From assembly GCF_014117325.1 (NCBI RefSeq), contig NZ_CP059732.1:1302001-1366000 (forward strand): a DNA stretch of 64,000 bases, in the 5' to 3' direction. Below are positions 15,301-33,586 of the stretch, piece by piece. The notes beneath the pieces are model-generated. The model searched no databases. It saw only the letters and a program-made list of their open reading frames with translations, and was not told where the DNA came from. Each line of letters starts with the position of its first letter. Positions within the stretch are counted from its first letter, which is position 1. A program made the position numbers and the translations under genes. The stretch comes from Spirosoma foliorum (lineage in GTDB: Bacteria > Bacteroidota > Bacteroidia > Cytophagales > Spirosomataceae).

Positions 15301-15918
15301 GTGGCCAGTCTACAATCTTCCTGGAGCAATTCCACCGACCAGCAACTTTGGCGAAGCCTTCGCGAAGGGGATGAGTCGGCATTTACGGCCATTTTCGAAC
15401 GGTACCACCGAACGTTGTATAACTACGGTAGCAAACTTGTTACTGATTCGACCTTGGTTGAAGATGCTGTTCAGGAAGTCTTTATCGATGTTTGGCGAAT
15501 GAGGGCCACATTGTCCGAAGAAATTGGCTCCATTAAATTTTACCTATATCGTTCCCTTCGTCGCCGGATTCACCGAATGCAGGGCAAATACCAGACTGGC
15601 GAAACAATAGACGGGCTAGTTGATGATGACACAACGCCAACGTCAGGCCCAGAGGAGACGACGCAGATTGAGCAGGAGTCCCGAGACTTGTTGAGCCGGC
15701 GCATTCAGGAGTTGCTCACTCACTTGCCTAAACGCCAGGTTGAAGCCCTTACCTTATATTACTACGACGAATTCAGCATAAGTGAGATCGCCCAACTGAT
15801 GGATGTCAACGAGAAATCAGTTCGTAATTTCATTCACAGGGCCATCACATCGCTTCGTCAGAATCGCAACTGGCTTATCGGCTCATTGCTGATTTTCTGG
15901 CTGTTATGTAGTCTGTAG
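15301..15918 (+). CDS. ECF RNA polymerase sigma factor (FecI-like)
   Basis: The 205-residue protein has sigma-70 region 2 (AIFERYHRTLYNYG… VEDAVQEVFIDVW) and region 4 (LPKRQVEALTLYYYDEFS, then ISEIAQLMDVNEKSVRNFI). It ends in a hydrophobic tail (WLIGSLLIFWLLCSL) that could touch the membrane. The start is GTG at 15301. The order sigma, FecR, STN-containing SusC, SusD is the classical Bacteroidota trans-envelope signalling arrangement: substrate binding to the SusC frees the sigma factor from FecR, and the sigma factor then drives the susC operon. Confidence 0.93.
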   Translation: MASLQSSWSNSTDQQLWRSLREGDESAFTAIFERYHRTLYNYGSKLVTDSTLVEDAVQEVFIDVWRMRATLSEEIGSIKFYLYRSLRRRIHRMQGKYQTGETIDGLVDDDTTPTSGPEETTQIEQESRDLLSRRIQELLTHLPKRQVEALTLYYYDEFSISEIAQLMDVNEKSVRNFIHRAITSLRQNRNWLIGSLLIFWLLCSL

Positions 15919-16032
15919 AAATTTTCGAAAAAATTTTCCCTAAAAAAAGAGGTCAAACAACCGCTAGCTGCTTCTTTCTTAGTAAAGGGAATAATTCTAT
16001 TACTTCTTGCGTAGGTACTCTTTTGTCCAGCT

Positions 16033-17163
16033 ATGAAACAAGCCCTCTACGAACTAACAGACTTCCTGGAAGACCCCGATTTTATCCGCTGGGTTAAGCA
16101 TCCTGATACAACTCAGGATGCCTATTGGCAGCAGTTTCTGGATGCTCATCCTGAGAAGAAGCTGGTAGTGGAGATGGCGCGTCAGTACGTTCTGATATTT
16201 GCTGAGCAAACGGGGCAGCATCAACCAACGGCCGCCCAAAGCGAGCTGATGCGCCAGTACATTCAGAAGCATGTTCAGGCCGAAAAGGGCGAAGTAATCG
16301 CCACTCCGTTTACGCGCACAGTTGGAACAAATTGGAACTGGTTACGCATGGCTGCGTCCATAGCGCTGGTCATAAGTATTGGGTTGGGAGCATATTGGTA
16401 TAGCCAAACACAGGGCGTCCCGCCTGAAAGTTATCAGCAGTTTAAAAAGGCAAATTCGGTTGGAACGACCTTGAAAGAAACCCGGAACGATACCGACAAA
16501 CCGTTGACCGTTTTACTGAGCGATGGGAGTTCGGTGGTACTTCAACCCGACAGCCGATTGAGCTACCCCGACAAGTTTCAGCAACGGGAAGTCTATTTAA
16601 CAGGAAAAGCTTTTTTTGAAATTGTTAAAGATCCTACGCACCCATTTCTGGTATATACGCGCGGCATTGCGACTAAAGTATTGGGAACCAGCTTCATGGT
16701 TGATGCGCCCGCAACTGGCCAGCCCATAAAAGTAGCTGTAAAAACGGGTCGAGTGGCGGTATATGCTTTGGAGGAATCGGCATCGGTTCGGCAAAAAGCC
16801 AGTAACCCCGAGTTGGAGGGACTTGTGTTGACACCGAATCAGGGCGCTGAATACTCGGTTGAAAGCAAGCGCCTGGTTCGGATGCCGGGTAGCGTATTTA
16901 CACAACCCGAAACCCAGGTGGTTGCGAAACAGTCGTTTGATTTTGATGAAACGCCTGTTTCAGAGGTATTTAGTATGCTCGAAAAAGCATACGGAGTTCA
17001 CATTGTTTACGACGAAACAATGCTGGGTAAATGCTCTTTATCGGCATCGCTGGTGGGGCAGCCTTTTCATGATAAACTGGCTATTGTTTGCAAAGCACTT
17101 GAAGCTCAATATGCTATTCAGGGCAATCAGGTGACGATTACCGGTGGCCAACGTTGCCAATAA
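16033..17163 (+). CDS. FecR family anti-sigma factor with DUF4974
   Basis: The 376-residue protein has a cytoplasmic N-terminal part, one membrane segment (SIALVISIGLGAYWY, about residue 113), a periplasmic FecR domain (VLLSDGSSVVLQPDSRLSYP … REVYLTGKAFFEI) and a C-terminal DUF4974 domain with the STN-like fold (VSEVFSMLEKAYGVHIVYD). It should hold the adjacent sigma factor inactive and receive the signal from the STN domain of the downstream SusC. It starts 114 bases after the sigma-factor stop. All expected domains are present. Confidence 0.93.
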   Translation: MKQALYELTDFLEDPDFIRWVKHPDTTQDAYWQQFLDAHPEKKLVVEMARQYVLIFAEQTGQHQPTAAQSELMRQYIQKHVQAEKGEVIATPFTRTVGTNWNWLRMAASIALVISIGLGAYWYSQTQGVPPESYQQFKKANSVGTTLKETRNDTDKPLTVLLSDGSSVVLQPDSRLSYPDKFQQREVYLTGKAFFEIVKDPTHPFLVYTRGIATKVLGTSFMVDAPATGQPIKVAVKTGRVAVYALEESASVRQKASNPELEGLVLTPNQGAEYSVESKRLVRMPGSVFTQPETQVVAKQSFDFDETPVSEVFSMLEKAYGVHIVYDETMLGKCSLSASLVGQPFHDKLAIVCKALEAQYAIQGNQVTITGGQRCQ

Positions 17164-17370
17164 TGACTATTCCTAACGCTTAACTCTTGCTAACCTATGC
17201 TTAAGATTACTCCCCTCCAGTAAAAAAGATCAGCCATGTTGACGCATAGCTGACCTCCGAATTGTCCCCCTTATTTTCTGACCTGACAAGCCGTGCCATT
17301 CACTGACAATGAATGGGTTGGGGGGATTTTGTTGAATTTTTTTGCTCACCCAACAAAACATGACAAATGT

Positions 17371-20300
17371 ATGCAAAAACTACGCTTTGTAGATGAAAGG
17401 CTTTTAAGAATTATGCGTATAACCCTCCTCCAATGGTTTCTGGTCTGTGCACTAGCCGGAATTTCGTGGGCACGTGATGGGAAAGCCCAACAACTTCTCG
17501 ACCAGAAGATTACACTTTCGGTAGAGAGTCAGAATGTGAAAAAAGTACTGCATCAGATTGAAAAACAGGTTGATGCCCGTTTCGTTTTTAGCTCACAAAT
17601 TATTCAGTCAGATCGCAAAATATCGGTTAAAAGCCAATCAGAACCGCTTTCTCAGGTATTGATTAAGTTGCTAAAACCACTCCAGCTCGTGTATGAAGTG
17701 AGTGGCAATATGATTATTATCCGACCCGATCGGCCCGCTAAATCCGTTCCCATCGAGGTTGATCAGGCCGCTATCGTGGCGCCAATCGAACAGGTTGCGC
17801 GATCTATATCCGGTACGGTGAGTGATCAGACCGGCGTAACGCTTCCCGGTGTAAACGTCGTGATCAAAGGCACACAAAAAGGTACCACGACCGACGCACA
17901 GGGGCAGTTTAAACTGGAACTTCCCGATACAGAAACTACGCTGGTTTTCAGCTCGGTTGGGTATCTGCCTAAAGAAGTGATTGTTGGCAATGAAACGATT
18001 CTGACCATAACGCTAACTGCCGATACAAAAGCACTGGGCGAGGTTGTGGTGGTGGGCTACGGAACGCAGAAACGCGCCGATGTAACAGCGGCCATTGCCT
18101 CCGTTCCGATGGGCGAAATTAGAGATATGCCCGTATCGAACGTAGCGACGGCCTTGCAAGGGAAAATTCCGGGGGTTGTGATTCAACAAACTAGTGGTGC
18201 GCCGGGTAGCACGCCCGCCATTAAAGTGAGAGGATTCGGTTCGATTAGCGCCGGTACGTCACCGCTGGTGGTTGTCGACGGAAATATTGTGGGGTCGGGC
18301 GTATTTGGCTTGTTGAGTAGCGTTGATATCGAGAGCATCGATGTGCTGAAAGATGCATCTTCAACAGCTATTTATGGGTCGAAGGGTTCCAATGGCGTTT
18401 TGCTGGTCACGACCAAACGCGGAAAGCCGGGGCGGATGAACGTGAATCTGGATGTATATACGGGCTTTCAGGAAATCACGAAAAAGATAGATCTCCTGAA
18501 CTCGCAGCAGTACGCCGAATTTGCCAAAGAAGCATCGAATACCGCTTATCTGGACAATGTGCCGGGAGCCAGCGCATCTGACCCAAACAGCGTTCGACCA
18601 GCGAGTTACCTTCGCTATCGGTATCCACGCGGTGACTTGTTCGACTGGTTCAATTATGATGATCCGACCAAAGTGGCGAACCTGTCCTATACCGATTTTC
18701 AGAGCCTGATTTTCCGACGAGCCAAGATGAGCAGTTATCAACTTTCCGTTTCGGGTGGTAACGAAAAGGCGCGTTATCTGATTAGTGGGAGTTATCTGAA
18801 ACAGGACGGTATCATTCTGAAATCATCGCTGGATCGGTATATTTTTCGGGCTAATGTTGAGGTAAACCTGTTGCCGAAGTTAAAAGTTGGGATGAATCTG
18901 AACCCGTCTTTCAAGAATGTGCAGGAGGTTACGGCTGAAAACCAGTGGTTTAATCAGGGAATTATTACAGCAGCTTTGGCGGCTGTCCCGATGGCACCTG
19001 TTTACGCAGCCGATGGGTCTTATTCATCACAACTAGCGCTGGCGGCTCCTTATAATTTACCTGGCGTTACGAATCCGCTGGCCAATATCACAGAATACAA
19101 CAGCCCGTATCTGTCGGGAAATTTGCTTGGAAATATCTATGCGGACTATGGCTTCCTGAGAAACTTCAATTACCGGGCATCGGCCAATGTGAATTTCAGT
19201 GATAACCGACGCAATACGTACCGAAGTTCTAGAATGCCGCTGAGCAATCTGCTACCCCCTACAACGGCGATGGGAACGGTTTATTCAGACCAGAATATGA
19301 GTTGGCTCTTCAATCAGGTTGTTGGCTATACCAAAAACATCAATTCAGCGCACAATATCGAGGCTTTGATTGGGATGGAAGCCACATCGACCAAGTTTCA
19401 GTCGAGCAGTGCGTCGGGAAGTTCGTATGCCAACGACGTTGTTGAAACGTTGAATGCCAGCGCCAGCGGTTCGACAACAACAGCCTGGTCGTTCAAAACA
19501 GCGAATGCCTCAGTCTCTTATTTTGCGCGAGCCAACTACAGTTACAAGAGTAAGTATTTGGTAAATCTGTCGGTTCGCCGGGATGGGTCATCCGTTTTCG
19601 GGCCCGATAATCGTTGGGGTACGTTTCCTGCGGGTTCGTTGGGCTGGCGGGTGAGCGAGGAGTCGTTCATGAAAAACGTACGGGCCATTTCCGAAACCAA
19701 ACTTCGGGTTAGTTATGGTTTGTCTGGAAACAATGCCTTCTCGGATAACTATCCTTACGTAGCGCAGTTGCGAACTGATAACTACAGTTTTAACAACAAC
19801 CTAGTCAATGGGTTAGCGCCGTCGTCGCTCGGGAATTCGAAGTTGGGTTGGGAGAAAAATCAGCAGTTCGATGCGGGTATCGACCTCGGTCTGATCAATA
19901 ATCGTATCTACCTGAGTGTCGATTATTACCACCGGATCACTAAAGACCTGCTGTTGTCGGTTAACGTGCCTTCGCTCACGGGCTTCACGTCGGCGTATAA
20001 GAACATCGGGAAGATGGAGAATAAAGGGATGGAGTTTGCTCTCAATACTCGCAACATGACCAAAGGGTTCATCTGGAATACGACAATTAACCTATCGTAC
20101 AACCGAAACAAAGTGCTGGAACTCGGCCCTACCGGTGACCCTATCCGTACCGCTAGTGGCAGCCTTGCGGATTTGACCATTACCCAAATTGGGGCACCCA
20201 TCGGTAGTTTCTACGGCTATAAACAGCTCGGCATTTTTCAGAATCAGGCCGATTTAGATGCGAATCCGCACGATGTTACGTCTCGGCCGGGCGATGTGAA

Positions 20301-20871
20301 ATATGCTGACATTGATGGTGATGGTAAAATCACGGCAAACGACCGGACGATTTTGGGGAATAACCAGCCCGATTTTATTTACGGCATCACCAACTCGTTT
20401 AGCTATAAAGGATTTGATCTGAACGTTTCCATTCAGGGTACACAAGGCGGTAAAATTCTTAACATAGGTCGCCGGTATTACGACAATATGGAAGGGAATC
20501 AGAACCAGTTGACAACGGCGCTGCGTCGCTGGCGCTCAGCCAGTGATCCGGGCGATGGCATTACCCCACGTGCTAATGAGCGTACTAGCGGAAACAACAA
20601 CGCCGTATCGTCAAGATGGGTAGAAGACGCCAGTTATGTGCGAATTCAGAATGTCAATCTAGGGTATCGACTGCCAACCAAGCTGTTGAACAAGATCAAG
20701 ATTCAGCAACTGCGTGTGTATGTATCGGCCCAGAATCTCTATACCTGGACAAAATACCTGAACTATAATCCTGAAGTAAGTAACTACGAAAGTCCTTTAT
20801 CGGCAGGTATCGATTACGGTGCCTACCCACTCGCCAGAACTTACACGTTTGGAATAAACGTGGGATTTTGA
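17371..20871 (+). CDS. SusC/RagA TonB-dependent receptor with STN signalling domain
   Basis: From ATG 17371 the protein has about 1166 residues. A signal peptide (LLQWFLVCALAGISWA) is followed by an STN domain (VESQNVKKVLHQIEKQVDAR…), a carboxypeptidase-like D2 domain (SISGTVSDQTGVTLPGVNVV), a TonB plug (GKIPGVVIQQTSGAPGSTPA) and a 22-strand-type barrel ending in a terminal aromatic-rich strand (TYTFGINVGF). The in-frame GTG at 17293 adds 26 residues without signal-peptide character. SusC imports glycan fragments across the outer membrane with its SusD lid. The STN domain shows it is also the sensor for the FecR/sigma pair upstream. Confidence 0.95.
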   Translation: MQKLRFVDERLLRIMRITLLQWFLVCALAGISWARDGKAQQLLDQKITLSVESQNVKKVLHQIEKQVDARFVFSSQIIQSDRKISVKSQSEPLSQVLIKLLKPLQLVYEVSGNMIIIRPDRPAKSVPIEVDQAAIVAPIEQVARSISGTVSDQTGVTLPGVNVVIKGTQKGTTTDAQGQFKLELPDTETTLVFSSVGYLPKEVIVGNETILTITLTADTKALGEVVVVGYGTQKRADVTAAIASVPMGEIRDMPVSNVATALQGKIPGVVIQQTSGAPGSTPAIKVRGFGSISAGTSPLVVVDGNIVGSGVFGLLSSVDIESIDVLKDASSTAIYGSKGSNGVLLVTTKRGKPGRMNVNLDVYTGFQEITKKIDLLNSQQYAEFAKEASNTAYLDNVPGASASDPNSVRPASYLRYRYPRGDLFDWFNYDDPTKVANLSYTDFQSLIFRRAKMSSYQLSVSGGNEKARYLISGSYLKQDGIILKSSLDRYIFRANVEVNLLPKLKVGMNLNPSFKNVQEVTAENQWFNQGIITAALAAVPMAPVYAADGSYSSQLALAAPYNLPGVTNPLANITEYNSPYLSGNLLGNIYADYGFLRNFNYRASANVNFSDNRRNTYRSSRMPLSNLLPPTTAMGTVYSDQNMSWLFNQVVGYTKNINSAHNIEALIGMEATSTKFQSSSASGSSYANDVVETLNASASGSTTTAWSFKTANASVSYFARANYSYKSKYLVNLSVRRDGSSVFGPDNRWGTFPAGSLGWRVSEESFMKNVRAISETKLRVSYGLSGNNAFSDNYPYVAQLRTDNYSFNNNLVNGLAPSSLGNSKLGWEKNQQFDAGIDLGLINNRIYLSVDYYHRITKDLLLSVNVPSLTGFTSAYKNIGKMENKGMEFALNTRNMTKGFIWNTTINLSYNRNKVLELGPTGDPIRTASGSLADLTITQIGAPIGSFYGYKQLGIFQNQADLDANPHDVTSRPGDVKYADIDGDGKITANDRTILGNNQPDFIYGITNSFSYKGFDLNVSIQGTQGGKILNIGRRYYDNMEGNQNQLTTALRRWRSASDPGDGITPRANERTSGNNNAVSSRWVEDASYVRIQNVNLGYRLPTKLLNKIKIQQLRVYVSAQNLYTWTKYLNYNPEVSNYESPLSAGIDYGAYPLARTYTFGINVGF

Positions 20872-20873
20872 GG

Positions 20874-21010
20874 AAATGGAAAATGTATAACGGACAATGA
20901 ATAATGAGTAATGGAATGCACCATAAGTTCCAATGAATCAGCAGTTTTTGTGGGATATCTTTCTCTGCTTATCTGTCATTATTAATTCTCCATTTTTCAT
21001 TATCCATTCA
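20874..21010. repeat. Imperfect palindrome of iterated AATGGATAATGA words
   Basis: Left side has aatggaaaatg…aatgaataatgagtaatgg; right side has tcattattaattctccat…tcattatccattca. Both are built from variants of one word and its complement. It lies between susC and susD and may attenuate expression between the two genes. Confidence 0.6.
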
Positions 21011-21040
21011 ATCACCTAACCGTTTTAATCAGTTTCAACA

Positions 21041-22492
21041 ATGAAGATATATAGAATCCTTGCGCCTGTGCTGATGCTGGTTTTGATCAGTTCGTGCAGC
21101 CAGCAATACCTGGACCTAAAACCAATATCGAATGCCACCAGTGATAATTTCTACAAAACGGCTGACGATATTAAAAATGCCCTCAGCGGAAGTTATGCCG
21201 CCTTACAAGCCGATGGAATTGCGGGTAATAGCTACGTATTCGGCGATATCGCGTCGGATAATACAATTCCGGTAGCCTCCGGTTCCATCACCGACCAGGA
21301 CGAGTTTGATCGCTTTTACATCAAAACAACCAATCCCTACATTTCGGGTCGCTGGAATGACTGTTACTCCGCTATTGCTCGTTTTAATACCATTCTGGAT
21401 AAAATTGATGGTATTACGATGGATGCTGCCGTCAAGAGCCGCTACATCGGGGAAGTGAAATTTTTGCGGGGCTGGATTTATTTTATTCTGGTGCAGACCT
21501 ACGGCGATGTGCCGCTGGTGACCAAGTCGATTAATAACCCGGATGATGGATACGCGTATAGCCGTAACCCTAAAACGGAAGTGTATACCCAGATTGAAAA
21601 GGATTTGTCGGAAGCGGAAGCTGCCTTGCCCGCTACGTATACAGGCGTCGATGTAGGTCGGGCAACGAAGGGGGCGGCTAAATCTATGCTGGGTAAAGTT
21701 TACCTGACGCAGAAGAAATACGCGCAGGCAGTGGCCAAACTGAAAGAGGTGATCGACCTGAATGTGTACGCTATTTTACCCAACTATGCCGACGTGTTTA
21801 AGGTGAGCAACAAAAACCACAAAGAGTCGGTGTTTGATGTGCAGTACAAATCGGGTGGAGCCGCTGAAGGAAACCCCTGGCCGAACTTGTTTGCCCCGCA
21901 AAGCTCTGGTAACTCGGTTATTGCGTTTAGTGGTGGGGGCAATAATCAACCCACTGAAGACCTCTACAAAGCTTACGAAACCGGCGATGTCCGTAGAGAT
22001 ATTTCGATGGCCATCTCGTACGTTAATGCCAGCGGCCAGGTTGTTCCGGCGAATTTTGTCAAGAAGTACTACGATACGCCCGCAACGAATAATGATAACG
22101 GAAACAACATCCCAATTATCCGGTATGCCGATGTGTTGCTGATGTATGCCGAGAGTGTAAATGAAGTTGGGTATCAGGCTAGTGGCGAAGCGTTTACCTA
22201 CTTGAATCAGATTCGCACTCGGGCCGGGCTGAAAGCGAAAACAGCTACCGATACGCCTGATCAGGCATCATTCCGGTTGGCTATAGAGCAGGAGCGCCGG
22301 GTCGAGCTGGCGTTTGAATGCCACCGTTGGTATGATCTTGTGCGTACAGGCCGGGCCATTCCCGTCCTGAATGGCAAAAAAGATCAGATTCGGTTAGTCA
22401 ACGCATTGACAGAGAATAATTTGGTCTTTCCAGTTCCTCAGGCGCAGATTGATGTCAACAAAGACAAGATCAAGCAAAATCCAGGGTATTAG
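21041..22492 (+). CDS. SusD/RagB family outer-membrane lipoprotein
   Basis: The 483-residue protein has a lipoprotein signal ending LISSC with Cys19 as the lipidation site, then the SusD motif YLDLKPISNATSDNFYKT. TPR-like helices and the typical late segment IPIIRYADVLLMYAESVNE follow, and the C-terminus is the RagB/SusD type (VNKDKIKQNPGY). It forms the substrate-binding lid on the preceding SusC. Glycan specificity is not readable from the sequence. Confidence 0.95.
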   Translation: MKIYRILAPVLMLVLISSCSQQYLDLKPISNATSDNFYKTADDIKNALSGSYAALQADGIAGNSYVFGDIASDNTIPVASGSITDQDEFDRFYIKTTNPYISGRWNDCYSAIARFNTILDKIDGITMDAAVKSRYIGEVKFLRGWIYFILVQTYGDVPLVTKSINNPDDGYAYSRNPKTEVYTQIEKDLSEAEAALPATYTGVDVGRATKGAAKSMLGKVYLTQKKYAQAVAKLKEVIDLNVYAILPNYADVFKVSNKNHKESVFDVQYKSGGAAEGNPWPNLFAPQSSGNSVIAFSGGGNNQPTEDLYKAYETGDVRRDISMAISYVNASGQVVPANFVKKYYDTPATNNDNGNNIPIIRYADVLLMYAESVNEVGYQASGEAFTYLNQIRTRAGLKAKTATDTPDQASFRLAIEQERRVELAFECHRWYDLVRTGRAIPVLNGKKDQIRLVNALTENNLVFPVPQAQIDVNKDKIKQNPGY

Positions 22493-22529
22493 ATAATGAG
22501 TGCTAATGCCTTTTATGACTGTATTTGAC

Positions 22530-22655
22530 GTGGTGTCAGACGGTCGGCCGCAGCCGTTCTTCAACCTGACACCACGAGGATTCTCAAAACCGAACGCCAG
22601 ACACAATAGGTTTTGAGAAACCTTACTATGTCGGATTTGAGAATCCGACACCACG
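22530..22655. repeat. GTGGTGTC-ended composite palindrome, copy 2
   Basis: Begins gtggtgtcagacgg and ends ccgacaccacg. Inner hairpins include aggttttgagaaacct and tcggatttgagaatccga. It fills the gap between susD and the small oxidoreductase subunit. Confidence 0.8.
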
Positions 22656-22705
22656 CTAAGAAAACGGCCCTTTTTTTATAGTAGCCAAACGTAATTAAGA
22701 AGCAA

Positions 22706-23266
22706 ATGAACAGACGGGAAGCCGTAGCAAGAGTGGCCTGGTTGATGGGAGGGACCCTGTCGACGCCAACACTAATGGCCATGAGCCAGTGGGGACAAAC
22801 TGCTGACAAGCAATCGAGTGGGCTTTCTAAAGCCGATTCGCTTCTGGATGATAGCCAGCGCGAAATTGTAGCTCGCGTTTCCGACATCATCATTCCCCGA
22901 ACCGACACACCGGGCGCGATTGATGCAGGTGTTCCCGCATTTATGGATGTGATGCTCCGTGACTGCTACAAAAAGCCTGCGCAAGATGCCTTCGTAGCGG
23001 GTGTGCGTAATCTGGAAAGCAAAAACTTCCTGGCGCTTAAACCCGATCAGCAGACAGAGATTCTGAAGCAGGTTGAAGCCAGCGCTACGCCCAGTGCTAC
23101 CAGTCCGTCGTTCTGGCAGATTGTTAAAGAGGTTACGTTGCTAGGTTACTTTACCTCAGAAGCAGGCATCAAAGCCTCGTTCGATTATCAGCCGATTCCC
23201 GGCCGGTTCGAGGTTATTAAGATCAAACCCGGCCAGAAAGATTTTATGTACGGAAATCAGGTGTGA
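22706..23266 (+). CDS. Gluconate 2-dehydrogenase subunit 3-like protein (oxidoreductase small subunit)
   Basis: The 186-residue protein starts with a Tat-type leader (MNRREAVARVAWLMGG). The mature part matches gluconate 2-dehydrogenase subunit 3: DDSQREIVARVSDIIIPRTD, then TPGAIDAGVPAFMDVML. In known enzymes this subunit pairs with a GMC-type flavoprotein and helps it fold and leave the cytoplasm through the Tat path. The GMC gene lies directly downstream, which supports such a complex. A separate cytochrome c subunit, present in classical three-subunit gluconate dehydrogenases, is not visible anywhere in the locus. Confidence 0.88.
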   Translation: MNRREAVARVAWLMGGTLSTPTLMAMSQWGQTADKQSSGLSKADSLLDDSQREIVARVSDIIIPRTDTPGAIDAGVPAFMDVMLRDCYKKPAQDAFVAGVRNLESKNFLALKPDQQTEILKQVEASATPSATSPSFWQIVKEVTLLGYFTSEAGIKASFDYQPIPGRFEVIKIKPGQKDFMYGNQV

Positions 23267-23281
23267 AGCAGGTTGGAGAAT

Positions 23282-23391: not shown

Positions 23392-23425
23392 TAGTATTCA
23401 ATTTCTAATTCAATCATTGTAAAAT

Positions 23426-25154: not shown

Positions 25155-25265
25155 GTGATGTCAGGTTCTGAACCTGACAAATGAGGTTTCTTAAAACCTC
25201 TTTCTAAGCCTATTAATTAGGTTTTGAGAAACCTTGCTGGTGTCGGGTTCTAAACCCGACACCAC
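25155..25265. repeat. GTGGTGTC-ended composite palindrome, copy 4
   Basis: Begins gtgatgtcaggttctgaacc and ends aaacccgacaccac. Inner hairpins gaggtttcttaaaacctc and aggttttgagaaacct are nearly identical to copy 3. It overlaps an upstream in-frame TTG/ATG-like extension of the next gene, which is one reason to start that gene at 25282. Confidence 0.8.
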
Positions 25266-25281
25266 TTGTAAGCTATTCCAG

Positions 25282-27453
25282 ATGCAACGACAATACACTA
25301 TTTTCTGGCTATTTATACTGATCGGTCAGTCGGCCTTCGCGCAGTTAACAAGCGGGAAACCCCAGCTTGTTATTGCGTTCGATACGGCCAGTAAGCCAAT
25401 TCAATTTGGGGTAAGTCGTTTAGAGAGAGCACTTCAGAAAGTTGGGCAAGCGCTTAAAAAAGAGCCGATTAGGTCGAATACACAATCAACGGGTATCCTT
25501 GTTTCGGTTCAACCCGCTCAAGGTGAACAGTTTATTCGGGAAGAGGGCTATCGGATTAGTTATCAGAATAATAGCCTGCTGATTACGGCGGTTAATGATG
25601 CCGGGGCGATGTATGGCGTGCTGGACATAGCGGAGCAGATTCAGATGGGGAAAAGTTGGAAAACGCTGACACCTAAGGCCGTAAATCCACACTTTACTGT
25701 TCGGGCGCTGAAAGTCAATTTGCCCTGGTCATCGTATCGGTCGGGTCCGGCAATGGAGGTGCATAGGGAGATATGTCGTGACCTTGCCTACTGGCAGCGA
25801 TTGTTGGATCAGATGGCCGAAAATCGGTTTAACGTCCTGTCCCTCTGGAATGTCCATCCGTTCTCCTTTATGGTCAAGCCGACGAATTTCCCGGAAGCGA
25901 ACAGTTTCTCAGCTAGCGAAATGGCTGACTGGAAACACTTCTGGACAACCCTGTTTCGGATGGCGAAAGAGCGGGGTATCGAGCCGTATATTGTAAACTG
26001 GAACATTGCTGTATCGCCTGAGTTTGCAAAGGCGTATAATGTGAAGGAACGAAACGATACATCGGCAGTTGTGAAACGGTACACCCGCGAAGTGGTTACG
26101 CAGGTTATTAACGAGTATCCAGATTTGGCGGGCATCGGTATTACGTTGGCCGACTGGATGAGCAATTTCAGCGGGACGAATTCGGCATTACCGGAGATGA
26201 CGCCCAAAGATCGTGAGGATTGGTTGGAGGAAACCATCATAACGGGTATTAAAGCAGCTAAACGCCCTGTGAAGCTCATTCACCGTTCGGTGCTCTCCGC
26301 CGATCCGGGCGAAATGCGACGCGTGATTAACGACGCTCAACTGCCCGATACAACGCTGGTCGAGATAAAATTCAACTGGTCGCACGGGCACTCGACACCC
26401 ACATTGGCCTTAACGCATGACTCCCATTCAGGCAAGCGTGACGATGGCTACTGGAATCCACTGCCATCGAATTACCGTGTTCAGTGGATGATTCGGAACG
26501 AGGTTTTTTTCATTCTTCGCTGGGGACAGCCCGATTTCATTCGTCGGCACATCGCGCAGAATACGGCCCCTTATGTCAATGGCTATTTTGTTGGTTCTGA
26601 GGGATATATTCCAGCGAAAGACTATTCGCATGTGAAAAGCGATCATCAGACCTGGGACTATGCCTTTGAGAAACAATGGCTTTTTTACCAACTCTGGGGT
26701 CGATTGCTTTACGATCCAACCACACCTGACGCCGTGTTTGAAGATTCCTTCGCGAATCGCTATGGACTGAAATCGGGAAAACCGATGCTCGAAGCCTATT
26801 CGGCAGCTAGTCAAATGCCATTGCGTCTTGCTTCATTCTACGGCTCAACCTGGGATTACACCTTGTATTCCGAAGGTTTTCTAGCGCCCTTTTCGGCGAG
26901 CAAAGGTTTTCAGGATAATGTGTCGAGTTTTATTTCGATCAACGAACTAATCGACCATTCGACCTTAGAGCCGACTTATCTGTCGATCAAAGAATATGTG
27001 AACCAGACTTTGGCAAAGAAGGGGATTCCAAAGGCCAAACTTAGTCCATTAAAACTGGCTGATTTACTGGATGCCGATAGCAAAACGGTGCTTCAACGGC
27101 TAGAGCAAGTACGTTCGGGCGCTTCACCCACCCTAACCTGCGAACTGGCTGATCTGGAAACCTGGGCTTATTTGAGTCGCTATTTTGCGGATAAACTGCG
27201 CGCGGCTGTATCGCTTCAAACCTACCGACTTACCAAGGATAAAACGCATCAACAGAAGGCAATCACTTACCTGAATCAATGCGTAACTCACTGGCGGAAG
27301 GTCAGCGAAATAACGGGCAGTCATTATCATGAAGTGCCTTATACTGAAGGCTATATCTCGAAAGAGACTGCCTATAAAGATTCCCAACGCTTCTTGTGGA
27401 GTAACTATTTGCCGCAAGTAGAGCACGACATTGCCCTCGCGCAAGAAGATTAA
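25282..27453 (+). CDS. Secreted glycosidase-like protein (GH20/GH67-type N-terminal domain plus TIM barrel)
   Basis: From ATG 25282 the protein has 723 residues, with a signal peptide (TIFWLFILIGQSAFAQ). Residues of about 20-130 resemble the small alpha/beta domain found before the catalytic barrel in GH20, GH67 and related enzymes (EEGYRISYQNNSLLITAVND, then AGAMYGVLDIAEQI). A TIM-barrel-like region follows (FNVLSLWNVHPF, ERGIEPYIVNWN, GIGITLADWMS). I cannot assign a GH family or catalytic acids with confidence; alpha-glucuronidase-like activity is one option. The start at 25282 avoids translating the upstream palindrome. It is 18 bases upstream of the next gene, so the two are one operon. 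Confidence 0.75.
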   Translation: MQRQYTIFWLFILIGQSAFAQLTSGKPQLVIAFDTASKPIQFGVSRLERALQKVGQALKKEPIRSNTQSTGILVSVQPAQGEQFIREEGYRISYQNNSLLITAVNDAGAMYGVLDIAEQIQMGKSWKTLTPKAVNPHFTVRALKVNLPWSSYRSGPAMEVHREICRDLAYWQRLLDQMAENRFNVLSLWNVHPFSFMVKPTNFPEANSFSASEMADWKHFWTTLFRMAKERGIEPYIVNWNIAVSPEFAKAYNVKERNDTSAVVKRYTREVVTQVINEYPDLAGIGITLADWMSNFSGTNSALPEMTPKDREDWLEETIITGIKAAKRPVKLIHRSVLSADPGEMRRVINDAQLPDTTLVEIKFNWSHGHSTPTLALTHDSHSGKRDDGYWNPLPSNYRVQWMIRNEVFFILRWGQPDFIRRHIAQNTAPYVNGYFVGSEGYIPAKDYSHVKSDHQTWDYAFEKQWLFYQLWGRLLYDPTTPDAVFEDSFANRYGLKSGKPMLEAYSAASQMPLRLASFYGSTWDYTLYSEGFLAPFSASKGFQDNVSSFISINELIDHSTLEPTYLSIKEYVNQTLAKKGIPKAKLSPLKLADLLDADSKTVLQRLEQVRSGASPTLTCELADLETWAYLSRYFADKLRAAVSLQTYRLTKDKTHQQKAITYLNQCVTHWRKVSEITGSHYHEVPYTEGYISKETAYKDSQRFLWSNYLPQVEHDIALAQED

Positions 27454-27471
27454 CTATATCCTTCCTTAACT

Positions 27472-29649
27472 ATGGAACGAAGAGATTTTATTAAAACCAC
27501 TGGTATACTAGGAAGCGCTTATGCCCTGTCTGGACCGTCTGCTCTGGCGAATTCGTCGACCAATGTACTAGCTCCGACTGACGGCTTTTGGCTCGATGGC
27601 CCGATGCGATGGGCGCAGCTTGCTTTTGTTGAACGAGACCCCGGTCATTATGACCCCGATTTCTGGCTCAACTATTTTAAACGGATTCATGCCGATGGGG
27701 CACTGCTGAGTGCGGGTGGTATTGTCGCCTTTTATCCGACTAAAATTCCGCTACATCATCGCAGCGATTTCATGGGCAATTCCGATACGTTGGGATATCT
27801 GGTAGAAGGCTGCAAAAAACAGGGCATGAAAATCATGCTTCGCACCGATCCGCATGCTGCCCGGCAGGACGTTTACGACGCACACCCCGACTGGATTGCG
27901 GTAACCGTTGATGGAAAACCGCGCCGTCACTGGGCCAACCCGGAGTTATGGGTCACCTGCGCACTTGGGCCTTACAACTTTGATTTCATGACGCAGGTGA
28001 ATCAGGAAATCATGGAGAAATTTCAGCCCGAAGGAATTTTCTCGAATCGCTGGCATGGTCATGATATCTGCTATTGTGAGCATTGTACGAGTAACTTCAA
28101 AAAAGCATCCGGCCTTGAATTGCCCAAAACGGCGGATAAACTCGACCCAACTTACCGCAAATGGGCCGACTGGCGAATGAAACGCCTACGGGAAGTCTGG
28201 GCGGTTTGGGATGCGGGTATCCGCAAACAAAAACCGACAGCGCGCTTCATTCCCAATGGCTTCCCCGATAAAGTAATGACCGGCAAAGAAGCCGATCTGT
28301 TCTTCGCCGATCAGCAGGCACGACGTGGCCTTACGGCTCCCTGGGCAAATGGAAAAGGGGCTAAGGAACTGCGCTCTACGCTGGGAATGAAGCCATTGAT
28401 CGGGATATTTAGTATTGGGATTGAAGAAGAGTTCAGATGGAAAGATTCGGTGCAGAGCGACGCCGAAATTCGAATTTGGGCAGCCGAAGGTACAGCCAAT
28501 GGTATGCGTCCCTGTTTTGTGAAGTTTGGGGGCGACATCTACGACAAGCGCTGGATGGAGGCTGTAGCCAAGCTCTATGAAGGTTATTATAAAAACGAAA
28601 AATACCTTCGTAACACGGCGTCGATGTCACGCGTTGGCGTCGTCTATTCGGAACAAACCGACCGTAATTACGGTGGCAAACCCTGGCAGCAAAAAAGCAG
28701 CGATCATCTGGACGGCATGTATCATGCCTTGGTAGAGAGCCGCATTCCGTTCGATATGGTCAATGATCGGCTACTGACGCCCGATGCGCTAAAACGGTTC
28801 AAGTTGCTGATTTTGCCTAACATTGCAGCTCTCTCTGACGCGCAATGCAAACAGATTCAAGCGTTTGTAGACAATGGCGGCAGCATTGTGTCGACTTTCG
28901 AGACGTCGTTATATGATGAAGAAGGCAAGCAACGATCTGATTTCGGGCTGGCGAGTCTGTTCGGTGTGTCGTACGATCAGAAAGTAGAGGGGCCAATGCG
29001 AAACAGTTATTTGCAGTTACGCAACGATGCCAAAAACAGCCAGACGCAATTGATTCTGAAAGGGTTGGACGATACCCCGCGTATTATCAATTCGATTTAT
29101 AAGGTCAATGTAAAACCAACGACCACGTTCCCAAGTCCGATCACACTGATTCCTACGTATCCCGATTTGCCGATGGAAGATGTGTATCCGCGTGTCGCTG
29201 AGACAGATACGCGGGAGCTATACCTACGGCAGATTGGCAAAGGGCGCGTGGCCTACATTCCCGGTGATCTGGATCGTTCGTTCTGGCAAATGCTGGGTAC
29301 CGATCATGGACAACTGCTGAGCAATGTTGTGAACTGGGCGCTCGATGAAGAACCCATTGCCGCCATAACGGGGCCGGGTGTAATCGACGTCAATGTCTGG
29401 CGACAGGCTAATTCCATGACTGTTCACCTGGTAAACCTGACAAACCCAATGATGATGAAAGGGCCATTCCGGGAGCTAATTCCGGTCGAGGCCCAGGTGA
29501 GTATTGCGGTTCCTTCGGGTGCCAAAGTGACTGGCGTTAAATTGCTTATGAGCGATCAGAAACCAAAATATGAGCTGAAAGGTGGTAAAGTAACCGTATC
29601 TGTGCCCAAGATTCTCGACCACGAAATTGTTGCGCTGGATTTAGCCTAG
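27472..29649 (+). CDS. GH42-like glycosidase with trimerisation-type domain and Tat leader
   Basis: The 725-residue protein begins MERRDFIKTTG, a twin-arginine motif followed by a hydrophobic stretch, so export is likely by Tat. The first half is a TIM barrel (MKIMLRTDPHAARQDVYDAH; FQPEGIFSNRW). The Cys group CYCEHC matches the zinc-binding cluster of GH42 beta-galactosidases. The middle part (LKLLILPNIAALSDAQCKQI…) matches the beta-galactosidase trimerisation, glutamine-amidotransferase-like domain. The catalytic Glu residues are not assigned, so activity is open. Its spacing of 18 bases to the gene before suggests co-translation and a shared substrate. Confidence 0.78.
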   Translation: MERRDFIKTTGILGSAYALSGPSALANSSTNVLAPTDGFWLDGPMRWAQLAFVERDPGHYDPDFWLNYFKRIHADGALLSAGGIVAFYPTKIPLHHRSDFMGNSDTLGYLVEGCKKQGMKIMLRTDPHAARQDVYDAHPDWIAVTVDGKPRRHWANPELWVTCALGPYNFDFMTQVNQEIMEKFQPEGIFSNRWHGHDICYCEHCTSNFKKASGLELPKTADKLDPTYRKWADWRMKRLREVWAVWDAGIRKQKPTARFIPNGFPDKVMTGKEADLFFADQQARRGLTAPWANGKGAKELRSTLGMKPLIGIFSIGIEEEFRWKDSVQSDAEIRIWAAEGTANGMRPCFVKFGGDIYDKRWMEAVAKLYEGYYKNEKYLRNTASMSRVGVVYSEQTDRNYGGKPWQQKSSDHLDGMYHALVESRIPFDMVNDRLLTPDALKRFKLLILPNIAALSDAQCKQIQAFVDNGGSIVSTFETSLYDEEGKQRSDFGLASLFGVSYDQKVEGPMRNSYLQLRNDAKNSQTQLILKGLDDTPRIINSIYKVNVKPTTTFPSPITLIPTYPDLPMEDVYPRVAETDTRELYLRQIGKGRVAYIPGDLDRSFWQMLGTDHGQLLSNVVNWALDEEPIAAITGPGVIDVNVWRQANSMTVHLVNLTNPMMMKGPFRELIPVEAQVSIAVPSGAKVTGVKLLMSDQKPKYELKGGKVTVSVPKILDHEIVALDLA

Positions 29650-29661
29650 GTGAGTAATACT

Positions 29662-29766
29662 GTGCTGTCAGTTTCTTAAAACTGACATGTAAGGTTTCTC
29701 AAAACCTATAGTCACACAGAAGGTTTTGAGAAACCTCACTCGTCGAGTTTAAGAACCCGACGCCAC
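29662..29766. repeat. GTGGTGTC-ended composite palindrome, copy 5
   Basis: Begins gtgctgtcagtttcttaaaa and ends cccgacgccac. The inner inverted pair aaggtttctcaaaacct and aaggttttgagaaacct is complementary, so the two inner hairpins could also pair with each other. It lies between the glycosidase-like and permease genes. Confidence 0.78.
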
Positions 29767-29804
29767 GGAGGATTGAAAATCAATTCATTAACTGAATACA
29801 TCCC

Positions 29805-31574
29805 ATGATTTGGAAACAAGTTACTGATCCGCTTAACAATATCGCTTTGTCCGTTTTCGTAGCGGCTGTGCCTATTCTGTTTATATTCTGGGCGCTGATT
29901 ATCCGGAAAATGAAGGGGTATCAGGCTAGTTTGATCGCTACACTCTTGGCTGCGATCATTGCCGTTTTTGTCTATGGCATGCCCGTAAAATTGGCCTTGT
30001 TGTCAGCTACACATGGGGCTGTGTACGGACTGTTCCCTATTTGCTGGCTGGTGATCATGGCTGTATTTCTGTTCAACGTCACGGTGAAAAGCGGCCAGTT
30101 TGAGATTATCAAACACTTCATGGCGTCCATCACCTCCGATCGGCGGTTACAGGCGTTGTTAATTGCGTTTTCGTTCGGGTCCTTTCTAGAAGGAACTGCC
30201 GGATTTGGAGCACCCGTCGCCATTACGGCGGCTATGCTGGTGGGGCTGGGTTTCAATCCGTTGTATGCGTCAGGTATTTGCCTGATTGCCAACACGGCTC
30301 CCGTCGCTTTTGGGTCGATCGGGATTCCCATTACGGTTGCTTCGCAAGTATCGGGTATTCCCGAATTGCCCATTTCGCAGATGGTTGGCCGGACCTTACC
30401 GATCCTTTCGATCATGCTGCCTTTTTATCTGGTGAGTATTATTGCTGGCTTCAAAAAGGCGCAGGAAATATGGCCTGCGGTGTTAGTATCGGGCATTTCG
30501 TTTGCCTTCCTTCAGTATTTCTCCTCGAACTTTTTAGGCCCAGCGTTACCCGACGTTATTGCCGGGTTGGGGTCGATTATTTGTTTGATGGCTTTCCTGC
30601 GTTTCTGGAAACCAAAGACCATCTGGCGCTTTGCCAACGAACCTGCGGCCACGCTCAACACCGATATCAGCTATACAAATGGGCAGCTTCTTCGGGCATG
30701 GTCGCCGTTTATTGTGCTGACGATCATGGTCATTGCCTGGGGTATACAACCCATTAAAGATGTTCTGAATTCGGCAGGAATGACCCAGTTTGAGTTTCCG
30801 GGCTTACACAATGCCATTCAGGGAGAAGATGGAAATCTGCTGCCTAAAATCTTTAAATTCAACTACTTCTCTGCCGCTGGAACGGCGATTCTGATTGCAG
30901 CTCTGGTGGCCATTCCACTCGTCGGCCTGACCTATGGCGAAGGGGCTAAAGTGTTCGGGGCAACATTGAACCAACTCAAATTTCCGATTCTGACGATTGC
31001 CGCGGTATTAGGATTCGCGTACATCCTGAACGATTCGGGCATCACCCTCACGCTGGCCGACGTGCTGGCGAATACGGGGTACCTGTTCCCATTTTTTGCC
31101 CCTGTGTTGGGTTGGCTGGGCGTTTTCATTACCGGTTCCGATACCTCCGCCAATGCGTTGTTCAGTAAACTTCAATATGCTACGGCTCAATCCATCGGGG
31201 TCGATCCGGTTGTGACGGTGGCGGCCAACATATCGGGCGGAGTTGTTGGGAAAATGATTTCACCCCAATCCATCGCCGTGGCTGCGGCTGCCGGAAATCT
31301 GGTCGGTAAAGAGTCGGAGTTGTTCCGCTTCACCGTCAAGCACAGTTTCTATATGCTAAGTTTCATTTGCCTCATTGTGCTGGCTCAGGCTTATGCGGTC
31401 AAATGGATAATTCCGGTCTACGAAATGCTCGGGACTAAGAAAGCTGCAGCCGCTCCTGATTTATCCAAAGGTTACACCTATCTAATTCTGCTTGGCGTAC
31501 TGCTGGCCGGGATAGCCATTTCTGTACTGACCACCGCCAGAAAAAAAGTACAAACCCCCGATTTAGTAAATTAA
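29805..31574 (+). CDS. L-lactate permease family transporter (LctP/LldP type)
   Basis: The 589-residue protein has 13 or more hydrophobic segments and the LctP signatures FLEGTAGFGAPVAITAAMLV, GFNPLYASGICLIANTAPVA and, near the end, GVFITGSDTSANALF. It is an inner-membrane proton symporter of short 2-hydroxy acids such as lactate and glycolate. In a SusCD locus with oxidoreductases, its cargo may be a hydroxy acid made during substrate oxidation or cleavage. The next gene starts 43 bases downstream of the stop codon. Confidence 0.93.
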   Translation: MIWKQVTDPLNNIALSVFVAAVPILFIFWALIIRKMKGYQASLIATLLAAIIAVFVYGMPVKLALLSATHGAVYGLFPICWLVIMAVFLFNVTVKSGQFEIIKHFMASITSDRRLQALLIAFSFGSFLEGTAGFGAPVAITAAMLVGLGFNPLYASGICLIANTAPVAFGSIGIPITVASQVSGIPELPISQMVGRTLPILSIMLPFYLVSIIAGFKKAQEIWPAVLVSGISFAFLQYFSSNFLGPALPDVIAGLGSIICLMAFLRFWKPKTIWRFANEPAATLNTDISYTNGQLLRAWSPFIVLTIMVIAWGIQPIKDVLNSAGMTQFEFPGLHNAIQGEDGNLLPKIFKFNYFSAAGTAILIAALVAIPLVGLTYGEGAKVFGATLNQLKFPILTIAAVLGFAYILNDSGITLTLADVLANTGYLFPFFAPVLGWLGVFITGSDTSANALFSKLQYATAQSIGVDPVVTVAANISGGVVGKMISPQSIAVAAAAGNLVGKESELFRFTVKHSFYMLSFICLIVLAQAYAVKWIIPVYEMLGTKKAAAAPDLSKGYTYLILLGVLLAGIAISVLTTARKKVQTPDLVN

Positions 31575-31617
31575 CGATTGCACCTGAATTGATATGAATG
31601 CACCGCTTTGTAACTAC

Positions 31618-32505
31618 ATGAAAGTGGGCCTGGTCCATTTTATGGCATTTCCCGAGACCATGAAAGGAGAAGGCCCCGTGTTGGAAACCATTAAAAAAGT
31701 TGTGTTGGATGAGTACTTCACAGCTATAGAAATCACGACCGTTAAAGACCTTGACGTTCGTCGAAAAGTAAAAAGCTTACTTGATTCTTCGCACATGACG
31801 GTGGCCTATGCCGCCCAACCCCGACTATTAACCACGGGCCTGAATCTGAATGATACCAACGAAGAAGGCCGACAACGGGCGCTTGCCAATGTAAAAGAAG
31901 GTATTGACGAGGCCTATGAACTAGGTGCTACAGGCTATTCATTTCTGAGCGGAAAGTATGAAGAAGCCCGGAAAGAAGAAGCTTTTGACCTGCTTGTAAA
32001 ATCGACAAACGAAATCTGCGCTTATGCAAAAAGCAAAGGCGATATGAAGATTTCGCTGGAAGTGTTTGATTATGATGTCGATAAAAAATCATTGATCGGT
32101 CCTGCCGATTTAGCGTTACGCTATGCAAAGGAGGTTCGGAAAGAACACGACAATTTCGGCTTAATGGTCGATTTAAGCCATATCCCCCTGATTCATGAAA
32201 CAATTGAGGAATCGTTGTTGCCCGTTAAGGATTACATCACCCACGCCCATATCGGCAACTGCGTCGTCAAAAGCCCAGACATGCCTGCTTATGGTGATGT
32301 TCATCCTCGATTCGGTTTCCCAAACGGTGAAAACGATGTGCCCGAAGTAGCGCATTATCTGAAAGTCCTGCTGGACATTGGCTATCTGAATACCGAAAAT
32401 CCACCTATCGTCAGTTTTGAAGTAAAACCGTTTGGTGATGAAGACCCGGATGTCGTAATTGCCAACGCCAAACGGACGCTGAATGCAGCCTGGGCACAAG
32501 TTTGA
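31618..32505 (+). CDS. Sugar isomerase/epimerase-type TIM-barrel enzyme
   Basis: From ATG 31618 the protein has 295 residues; an in-frame ATG at 31594 adds eight. It belongs to the xylose-isomerase-like TIM barrel (AP endonuclease 2) family. Likely metal ligands are the Glu in ISLEVFDYD, Asp and His in GLMVDLSHIPLIHE, the His pair in ITHAHIGNCV, and the late Glu in VSFEVKPFGDEDPD. Members act as ketose epimerases, inosose dehydratases and, in some Bacteroidota and other bacteria, in cleavage of 3-keto-glycosides. Cytoplasmic, as no signal is present. Its place beside a GMC/small-subunit pair makes the last role worth testing. Confidence 0.82.
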   Translation: MKVGLVHFMAFPETMKGEGPVLETIKKVVLDEYFTAIEITTVKDLDVRRKVKSLLDSSHMTVAYAAQPRLLTTGLNLNDTNEEGRQRALANVKEGIDEAYELGATGYSFLSGKYEEARKEEAFDLLVKSTNEICAYAKSKGDMKISLEVFDYDVDKKSLIGPADLALRYAKEVRKEHDNFGLMVDLSHIPLIHETIEESLLPVKDYITHAHIGNCVVKSPDMPAYGDVHPRFGFPNGENDVPEVAHYLKVLLDIGYLNTENPPIVSFEVKPFGDEDPDVVIANAKRTLNAAWAQV

Positions 32506-32511
32506 TTTTAG

Positions 32512-32597
32512 TTTTTTGTCATTCCGACGACAGGAGGAATCTCAGGCTTCTCGTTTAGGAAATTTGAGATTCCTCCTGTCGTCGGAATGACAAAAAA
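32512..32597. terminator. GTCATnCnGACG-family palindrome, copy 3
   Basis: Arms 32512-32544 and 32565-32597 are perfect 33-base complements with terminal T and A runs. It starts seven bases after the TIM-barrel gene and ends 29 bases before the dehydrogenase gene, so it could end the upstream transcript. Confidence 0.88.
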
Positions 32598-32626
32598 AGA
32601 AGCGATAAAACAAAGAAAAACTAATA

Positions 32627-33586
32627 ATGAAGATTGTCGTATTAGATGGCTACACTCTAAATCCGGGCGATTTGTCCTGGGAAGGTTTAGAAAAACTCGG
32701 TGACCTGACGGTATATGACCGGACTCCTGCCGATCAGGTGGTGGAGCGGGCAAAAGATGCTGAAATCATTTTTACCAATAAAACACCCCTTGGCGAAGAT
32801 CTGTTAACCCAGCTACCTGCGTTGAAATTCATTGGCGTGCTCGCCACGGGTTATAACATTATCAATACAGAATTCGCCAAGCAGCGAGGAATCGTTGTTT
32901 GCAATGTACCTGGCTATGGAACCGCTTCGGTTGTTCAGTTGACCTTTTCCCTGTTACTTGAATTGACTCAACAGGTTAAACATCATAGCGATGCCGTACG
33001 GGAAGGCAGATGGGCTAAATCGATAGACTGGTGTTTCTGGGATTACCCATTGGTTGAACTGGCTGGCAAAACCATCGGGATTATTGGATTTGGCAGTATT
33101 GGCGAGAAAGTGGGCGACATCGCTACGGCCTTTGGTATGAACATCATCGGCTCAAAGCGACACCAAACGGACCAATCGCATCGGACTAATTTCCGTTGGG
33201 CCGATGTTCCTGAGCTGCTGGCACAATCGGATGTTGTAAGTATTCACTGTCCGTTGACGCCTGAAACGCAGGGGCTTATCAATAAAGAAAATCTGGCGTT
33301 AATGAGGCCAACGGCGTTTCTCTTAAATACGTCCAGAGGCCCAATTGTTGTTGATCAGGATTTGGCTGATGCCTTGAATACAGGTGTCATTGCCGGAGCC
33401 GGTATCGATGTACTCTCAAAAGAACCGCCCGCTGCCGACAATCCATTATTTACGGCCAGGAACTGCCTGATAACCCCGCACATCGCCTGGGCAACTATCG
33501 AAGCGAGAACTCGCCTAATGGATATTACCATCCAGAATCTGGCTGCTTTTTTGGAGGGTCAGCCCGTTAATGTGGTGAATAAGTAG
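32627..33586 (+). CDS. D-2-hydroxyacid dehydrogenase, glycerate dehydrogenase type
   Basis: The 319-residue NAD(P)-dependent enzyme has the Rossmann motif GIIGFGSIGEKVG. The catalytic residues are the Arg in NTSRGPIV, the Glu in DVLSKEPP and the His in ITPHIAWAT. The N-terminal pattern VLDGYTLNPGDLSW is typical of glycerate dehydrogenase/hydroxypyruvate reductase. It would interconvert a 2-keto acid and a D-2-hydroxy acid in the cytoplasm. It closes the carbohydrate locus and could process the product carried by the lactate-type permease, although a palindrome separates it from the gene before. Confidence 0.9.
   Translation: MKIVVLDGYTLNPGDLSWEGLEKLGDLTVYDRTPADQVVERAKDAEIIFTNKTPLGEDLLTQLPALKFIGVLATGYNIINTEFAKQRGIVVCNVPGYGTASVVQLTFSLLLELTQQVKHHSDAVREGRWAKSIDWCFWDYPLVELAGKTIGIIGFGSIGEKVGDIATAFGMNIIGSKRHQTDQSHRTNFRWADVPELLAQSDVVSIHCPLTPETQGLINKENLALMRPTAFLLNTSRGPIVVDQDLADALNTGVIAGAGIDVLSKEPPAADNPLFTARNCLITPHIAWATIEARTRLMDITIQNLAAFLEGQPVNVVNK

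Follow-up and report, generated by a model that had tools for sequence, protein, structure and literature searches.

What does a bacterium gain from a glycan when the locus that handles it also encodes a flavin oxidoreductase and a permease for short acids? We considered this question for eleven genes at positions 15301-33586 of a 64,000-nucleotide stretch of Spirosoma foliorum DNA (the window), which corresponds to C1:1302001-1366000 in a genome of 8.85 Mb on one contig, labelled G000 in our comparisons (G numbers denote genomes and L numbers loci). All eleven open reading frames (ORFs) are intact and lie on the + strand, and the ORF list together with profile searches places each in the family that an earlier reading of the sequence alone (the sequence-only reading) had named. 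The usual interpretation of a SusCD locus is that it leads to free sugars. We propose, with belief and doubt evenly balanced, that this is a compound SusCD locus in which the second of two blocks would free a C3 acid at the level of glycerate for import by an LctP permease, and the first would oxidise and trim a related glycoside.

A composite of two adjacent SusCD-type blocks

Block 1 comprises an extracytoplasmic function (ECF) sigma factor (15301..15918; PF08281/PF04542; 84% match in L163), a FecR-type anti-sigma (16033..17163; PF04773/PF16344, FecR and FecR_C), an STN-SusC TonB-dependent receptor (17293..20871; TIGR04056, 940 bits; PF07660, STN) with a listed GTG start whose true start may be further in, a SusD lipoprotein (21041..22492; PF07980, PF14322), a Gluconate_2-dh3 small subunit with a twin-arginine-like start (22706..23266; PF13618, 9e-33), a GMC flavin oxidoreductase lacking a signal peptide of its own (23426..25135; PF00732/PF05199, N and C domains), and a GH138-like protein (25234..27453). 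Block 2 begins with GHL6, a GHL6 + GH42M protein with its own twin-arginine-like start (27472..29649; PF14871, 2e-17; PF08532), and continues with the LctP-family acid permease (29805..31574; PF02652, 596 bits), an AP_endonuc_2 TIM-barrel isomerase/epimerase (31594..32505; PF01261) and a D-2-hydroxyacid dehydrogenase (2HADH; 32627..33586; PF02826/PF00389). The series of ECF sigma, FecR, SusC, SusD and then enzymes on one strand is that of a SusCD polysaccharide utilisation locus. Internal gaps are 213 bp at most, with 18 bp between the GH138-like gene and GHL6.

The two blocks became visible in the best 80 of 325 GHL6 loci, which were annotated with set identity thresholds; many of these loci end at contig borders, so that their counts are lower bounds, and the genomes are related, so that counts are not independent. 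In G276 (L163 overlapping L105) both blocks are whole and each has its own sigma-FecR-SusC-SusD: sigma-FecR-SusC-SusD-G2DH3-GMC-GH138-like is followed by a second sigma-FecR-SusC-SusD and then by GHL6-LctP-TIM-2HADH-F78-GHL6b-reductase-glycerate kinase. The order SusC-SusD-GHL6-LctP-TIM-2HADH recurs in Dyadobacter bucti (L023) and in metagenome-assembled genomes (MAGs) labelled as Segetibacter (L024), Bacteroidetes (L026), Williamsia (L028) and Ferruginibacter (L045), with SusC and SusD 37-41% identical to those of the window and no GMC within the fetched stretch. The GMC pair precedes GHL6 with one gene between in L008 and L011, where no SusCD stands in the same run, and in two Larkinella loci (L006 and L009), which show no GMC and no LctP, GHL6 adjoins in divergent orientation a SusC (49-50%) and SusD (58-61%) closer to those of the window's block 1. 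Of the named relatives found, Spirosoma arboris came closest (L001; GHL6 97% identical), in a survey from which the window's own record may be left out.

Gene order across these loci identifies the window locus as a composite of two adjacent SusCD-type blocks, and the simplest reading is that the blocks were fused after loss of the second sigma/FecR/SusCD; the reverse, an insertion, may also have happened. Block 2 likewise appears as a wider unit, present in other Bacteroidota with different SusCD and no GMC. The sequence-only reading had assumed a single pathway and had named in advance, as evidence against it, relatives that carry the SusCD and oxidoreductase blocks apart. Such relatives exist in part, as block 2 accompanied by a different SusCD, GMC being absent from the fetched stretch (L023, L024, L026, L028, L045), as a GMC pair near GHL6 without SusCD (L008, L011) and as two complete blocks side by side (L163/L105). 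The locus it described is real and well organised, and was misread in this one part.

What withstood the comparison was the tie between the oxidase and the locus. Across 36 Spirosoma-genus genomes, searched at E 1e-260 for GMC and 1e-200 for GHL6, a GMC orthologue (84% or more) was found in 20 and GHL6 in 26, and in 19 of the 20 the GMC lay within 12 kb of GHL6 on one contig. GMC, GH138-like and GHL6 are fused in five genomes (G000, G282, G264, G245 and G297, the SusCD of G264 falling outside the stretch), two blocks with a GMC-GHL6 spacing of ~9 kb occur in five (G276, G294, G252, G273 and G288, that of G294 being deduced from the spacing and L104), GMC stands immediately 5' of GHL6 in G207, G255 and G258, and the order GMC-flavin oxidase-GHL6 holds in G285, G279, G059, G029 and G240; the G689 genes are on a short contig. 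The exception is G215, where the GMC pair lies amid unrelated genes and GHL6 has no match. Conversely, 7 of the 26 GHL6 genomes lack a GMC orthologue (G230, G690, G177, G249, G261, G291 and G188), G690 being only 71% complete and the last four having a 67-68% GMC relative on another contig. Among the 80 GHL6 loci, a GMC at any identity (E 1e-8, 30% length) was confined to the nine Spirosoma loci in which the set thresholds had also placed one, and a GMC pair beside GHL6 was seen only in this genus. By these counts the GMC is best described as a Spirosoma accessory linked to block 2, not a core part of it. In G303 (L161), which yielded matches in neither genus search, GMC, GHL6 and LctP are each broken into several ORFs, through decay or assembly errors.

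The other partners in the 80 loci were LctP (26), 2HADH (20), TIM (12), a second GHL6-like gene (10), glycerate kinase (9) and GH138-like (8). Of the Spirosoma loci all but L004, which ends just after GHL6, contain LctP (15/16); it is present in 0/4 from Larkinella, 3/4 from other Spirosomataceae, 8/33 from other Bacteroidota and 0/23 from outside Bacteroidota. In L027 and L059 GHL6 is followed instead by an LctP of another subfamily. The GH138-like gene is not restricted to Spirosoma, a 65% relative following block 2 in L045 and distant relatives (22-28%) occurring in L023, L024, L028, L029 and L036.

At its 3' side the locus is limited by a convergent rhodanese-family gene at 33914. Minus-strand ORFs listed within it (126-190 aa) overlap the eleven genes; inside the locus the profile scans covered these eleven. 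Promoter-like and terminator-like sites showed no excess over shuffles, and a Bacteroidota promoter pattern gave two sites, none of them within the locus, with 1.5 expected.

The acid carried by the permease

At 578 bits against a cut-off of 341, the permease belongs to the lactate permease family TIGR00795. A survey at E 1e-100 found LctP in 48 of 200 family, 7 of 118 order and 4 of 395 class genomes, the last four all belonging to the window's family. Contexts were analysed for 60 of the 68 match places; the two of G000 were seen separately, and those of G300, G176, G126 and G163 and two of G303 were left out. GHL6 was found in 28 of the 60 contexts and a GH92 pair in 12, with no context containing both. 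Similarly, a glycerate kinase or reductase was found in 18 and LutABC and/or malate synthase in ten, again with no overlap. The 28 contexts with GHL6 included kinase or reductase in 13, 2HADH at 60% or more in 24, and LutABC/malate synthase in one (L159).

The kinase that neighbours block 2 in relatives matches PF02595 (437 bits) and TIGR00045 (417 bits; cut-off 168). The neighbouring reductase, which is seen less often than the kinase, finds its best match in TIGR01505, tartronate-semialdehyde reductase, at 258 and 268 bits; since the cut-off is 341, we regard it as like that enzyme and not as a certified member. A second LctP (85%) in the window's own genome stands in the order GH92-GH92-LctP-GHL-TIM-reductase-glycerate kinase (L097; G000:C1:1918001-1938000), in which the TIM barrel has a signal-like start; one divergent gene and then a SusCD pair follow this cluster. 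One of the genome's two PF02595 kinase genes is the one in L097, and it is 71% identical to the block 2 kinase of L003. The window's 2HADH (PDB matches 5tx7, E 2e-115, 5aov and 2cuk) is kin to glycerate dehydrogenase/glyoxylate reductase. Its TIM barrel keeps the metal-ligand set E156, D193, H219 and E276 in 24 of 26 alignment rows, the two deviating rows being one wrong gene and one distant relative, and its only model matches beyond Pfam, both weak, are to IolO (46 bits) and psicose epimerase (29 bits), each with a cut-off of 300.

Because kinase and reductase neighbour the permease in relatives, and the same pair stands beside the second LctP in this genome, we read the recovered acid as most likely a C3 acid of glycerate level; lactate or glycolate is possible. 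The proposal of the sequence-only reading that permease and dehydrogenase recover a short hydroxy or oxo acid fits these neighbours (glycerate kinase, reductase, LutABC). In the pathway we envisage, GHL6, exported by the twin-arginine translocation (Tat) system, would act in the periplasm on a glycoside imported by SusCD and free glycerate, hydroxypyruvate or tartronate semialdehyde. The acid would enter the cell through LctP and be converted to D-glycerate by 2HADH, with the TIM barrel as a possible isomerase, and a glycerate kinase encoded elsewhere in the genome would pass it to glycolysis. Block 1, with its own sigma/FecR/SusCD, GMC pair and GH138-like protein, would oxidise and trim a related glycoside, either ahead of block 2 or in parallel with it. 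If this is right, the locus should be induced together with the glycerate kinase genes, and GHL6 should release an acid. That a SusCD unit recurs with a short-acid permease and, among relatives, with genes of the glycerate pathway suggests recovery, by some Bacteroidota, of the acid moiety of a glycoside so far unrecognised.

Several observations weigh against this proposal. Neither pair of markers was present in 32 of the 60 LctP contexts, and the ten with LutABC and/or malate synthase point to lactate or glycolate. The window's own locus contains no glycerate kinase. The TIM barrel has no match to hydroxypyruvate isomerase TIGR03234 and is absent from the genome's seven weak matches to that model. 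Furthermore, neither LctP subfamily occurs in 52 of the 80 GHL6 loci, including 23/23 outside Bacteroidota and 4/4 from Larkinella, so the role of GHL6 need not include the acid.

A route through glyoxylate carboligase was set aside. No match over cut-off exists in the genome for the carboligase (best 330 bits; cut-off 711) or for hydroxypyruvate isomerase (best 93 bits; cut-off 353), so a glyoxylate-to-glycerate route is not evident, and the carboligase result speaks against glyoxylate as the origin of the glycerate. The GH92 genes beside the second LctP also prompted the idea of a mannosylglycerate or glucosylglycerate substrate, for which none of the papers listed in a literature search gave a link; among the papers listed in further searches there was likewise none on the gene combination of the locus.

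Glycosidase-like proteins and the oxidoreductase pair

GHL6 proteins of the window type are 54-97% identical and range from Spirosoma to Planctomycetota and Acidobacteriota. A Tat-type motif ([R/K]R-x-F/R-hydrophobic) is found within the first 90 residues of 77 of the 82 members of the cluster. The best profile match was the GH151 enzyme ALfuk2 (6TVK; E 1e-26), followed by GH42 (2e-12). Residues C163, C200, C202 and C205 are invariant in 45/45 aligned sequences (40 GHL6 and five GHL6b), a set consistent with the zinc site of GH42. The catalytic residues of ALfuk2 are named as D154 and E235 in PMC10154630. D154 corresponds to chain residue 183, with an offset of 29 judged from chain length, and aligns with N192 of GHL6, which is invariant in 45/45 where GH151 has the nucleophile Asp of its DGIFLD strand; E235 falls outside the aligned stretches. 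At the place of the NEYG Glu of GH42, residue 193 is Arg (40) or Met (5, GHL6b), and positions 313-314, approximately at the second GH42 catalytic Glu, are F/L and S/I in 45/45; we assume both of these glutamates to be catalytic in GH42.

We thus rejected membership of GHL6 in GH151, whose nucleophile Asp is absent, and in GH42, neither of whose catalytic Glu residues is present at the aligned places. Classical chemistry of either family is not supported by these alignments, and another acid could take the role. The Pfam GHL6 family does include working hydrolases, given that Mfuc3, which matches GHL6, is reported to be an active fucosidase in PMC4723247. The alignments point to a conserved glycosidase-like family in which another residue has taken the place of the nucleophile of its best solved relative. 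A bolder and rather doubtful suggestion is that GHL6 represents a new class of exported enzyme, which would cleave an acid-bearing glycoside non-classically to yield the C3 acid taken up by LctP, with GMC oxidation preparing the substrate in Spirosoma. In Bacteroidales-type MAGs (L029, L035, L036 and L038), GHL6 precedes both another GHL6-like gene and an enolase-superfamily gene of the sugar-acid-dehydratase type.

The GH138-like gene is listed with a TTG start, and an in-frame ATG at 25282 opens a signal-peptide-like stretch. Its residues 56-698 align with the GH138 alpha-galacturonidase BPa0997 (6hze; E 3e-19, 72 bits). D307 aligns with Glu294 of GH138, which we presume to be catalytic, and no Glu is found at the place of Glu361, in a poorly aligned stretch; a catalytic role for Glu361 is read from the name of a PDB mutant. 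At the Glu294 position, three F22-type relatives have Glu (L023, L024 and L028) and L029 has Asn. With Asp at this position and no Glu at the place of Glu361, membership in GH138 was rejected; the score to NF049878 is only 128.7 bits, with a cut-off of 1300.

The small subunit of the oxidoreductase pair starts with MNRREAVARVAWLMGG, which is Tat-like as judged by eye, and its MNRREA start is common to the six relatives listed. Protein starts therefore bear out the earlier claim of a Tat-type start on the small subunit and none on the GMC, an arrangement that fits joint Tat export of the two. The twin-arginine-like start of GHL6 itself, and the lack of a cytochrome c subunit gene among the locus genes scanned, are additions to that reading. 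Although the gluconate 2-dehydrogenase-type make-up (GMC and PF13618 subunits) is present, the nearest solved kin of the GMC in a PDB profile search were the large subunit of fructose dehydrogenase and flavin adenine dinucleotide (FAD)-glucose dehydrogenase (E 6e-35); for the small subunit the PDB gave no hit at E values of 1 or below. The GMC has 14 match places in its own genome, of which two are the parts of a single split gene (G000:C1:6798394-6800102, L101, two ORFs behind a small-subunit gene), and seven full-length paralogues are 48-56% identical. Pairing of GMC and small subunit is thus common by itself in this genome, and one paralogue pair (56%) adjoins a PF06439 3-keto-disaccharide hydrolase gene.

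Elsewhere in the window, a separate SusD-SusC pair lies close after the locus (36244-40993, -), adjoined on the other strand by deoxynucleoside-kinase-like and DJ-1-like ORFs, and a protein at 5560-7104 (-) carries GH3 domains (PF03321, PF23571, PF23572), of the family that contains the plant auxin-conjugating enzymes.

Rival readings and known systems

The 3-keto chemistry suggested by the sequence-only reading, in which the GMC would make a periplasmic 3-keto-glycoside for cleavage by the TIM barrel or a GH-like protein, could draw on the paralogue pair beside PF06439, and Asn at the GH151 nucleophile and Asp at Glu294 would suit non-classical cleavage. However, PF06439 is found in 0/11 locus genes, the nearest of 21 genome matches (20 over cut-off) being ~88 kb from the GMC, and the window's TIM barrel has no apparent signal peptide and would be cytoplasmic, apart from the GMC pair. 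Moreover, 7 of the 12 GHL6 loci with a TIM orthologue show no GMC, and the seven GHL6 genomes noted above lack this GMC, four of them having only the 67-68% relative. Without PF06439 in the locus, and with TIM kept where GMC is missing, this chemistry was dropped as the main account and we consider it quite unlikely. About as unlikely, in our estimate, is a sugar-acid pathway in which the GMC would make a 2-keto-aldonate that is imported and reduced by 2HADH acting like a 2-ketogluconate reductase. Its attractions are the gluconate 2-dehydrogenase-like make-up, a probable 2-ketogluconate reductase among the PDB matches of 2HADH, and enolase-superfamily genes of the sugar-acid-dehydratase type beside GHL6 in 7/80 loci, with a further two such genes in L046. 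Yet LctP occurs in 0/8 of these loci, LctP-type permeases are known as carriers of C2-C3 acids, and the closest solved kin of the GMC act on fructose and glucose.

Scavenging of lactate or glycolate is an unlikely reading too, if a less strained one. Here LctP would be an ordinary permease and 2HADH a lactate or glyoxylate enzyme, with an acid not derived from the glycan. The ten contexts with LutABC and/or malate synthase are consistent with this, as are the order GHL6-LctP-2HADH-LutABC-malate synthase in L066 and scores of 630 bits to L-lactate permease (cut-off 918) and 568 bits to glycolate permease (cut-off 1121). The glycerate kinase or reductase contexts, which never overlap with these, argue against it, and the adjacency of SusCD and GHL6 is left without explanation; we keep it as a rival to the release of a glycerate-level C3 acid from a glycoside. 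Some or all LutABC-type genes lie near malate synthase and LctP in L128, L130, L132, L134, L152, L154 and L066; these clusters suggest oxidation of glycolate (or lactate) feeding malate, a combination with glycolate on which a literature search found no paper.

Parts of the locus can be compared with several known systems. The GMC aligns with the large subunit of membrane-bound fructose dehydrogenase over nearly its full length (8k6k, residues 10-565, E 4e-41) and keeps three of the four cysteines of the motif CCGNNNCMPIC, the second being Gln. The PF13618 small subunit with its Tat-like start is a further likeness to fructose and FAD-glucose dehydrogenases, whereas the window locus has no cytochrome subunit gene. 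GMC/small-subunit pairs also recall the PF06439 (DUF1080) 3-keto-disaccharide pathways, from which the locus differs in lacking PF06439. GHL6 resembles ALfuk2 and GH42 in its C-x-C-x2-C stretch and its Pfam GH42M domain, and departs from the former in Asn192 and from GH42 beta-galactosidases in Arg/Met for the NEYG Glu. The GH138-like protein shares a long alignment with BPa0997, in contrast to its low score, its Asp for Glu294 and its NF049878 result. Finally, the glycerate dehydrogenase, tartronate-semialdehyde reductase and kinase families of the glycerate pathway are found in relatives next to block 2 or to copies of LctP; in contrast to that pathway, neither carboligase nor hydroxypyruvate isomerase is found over cut-off here, and the genes are tied to SusCD and GH-like partners.

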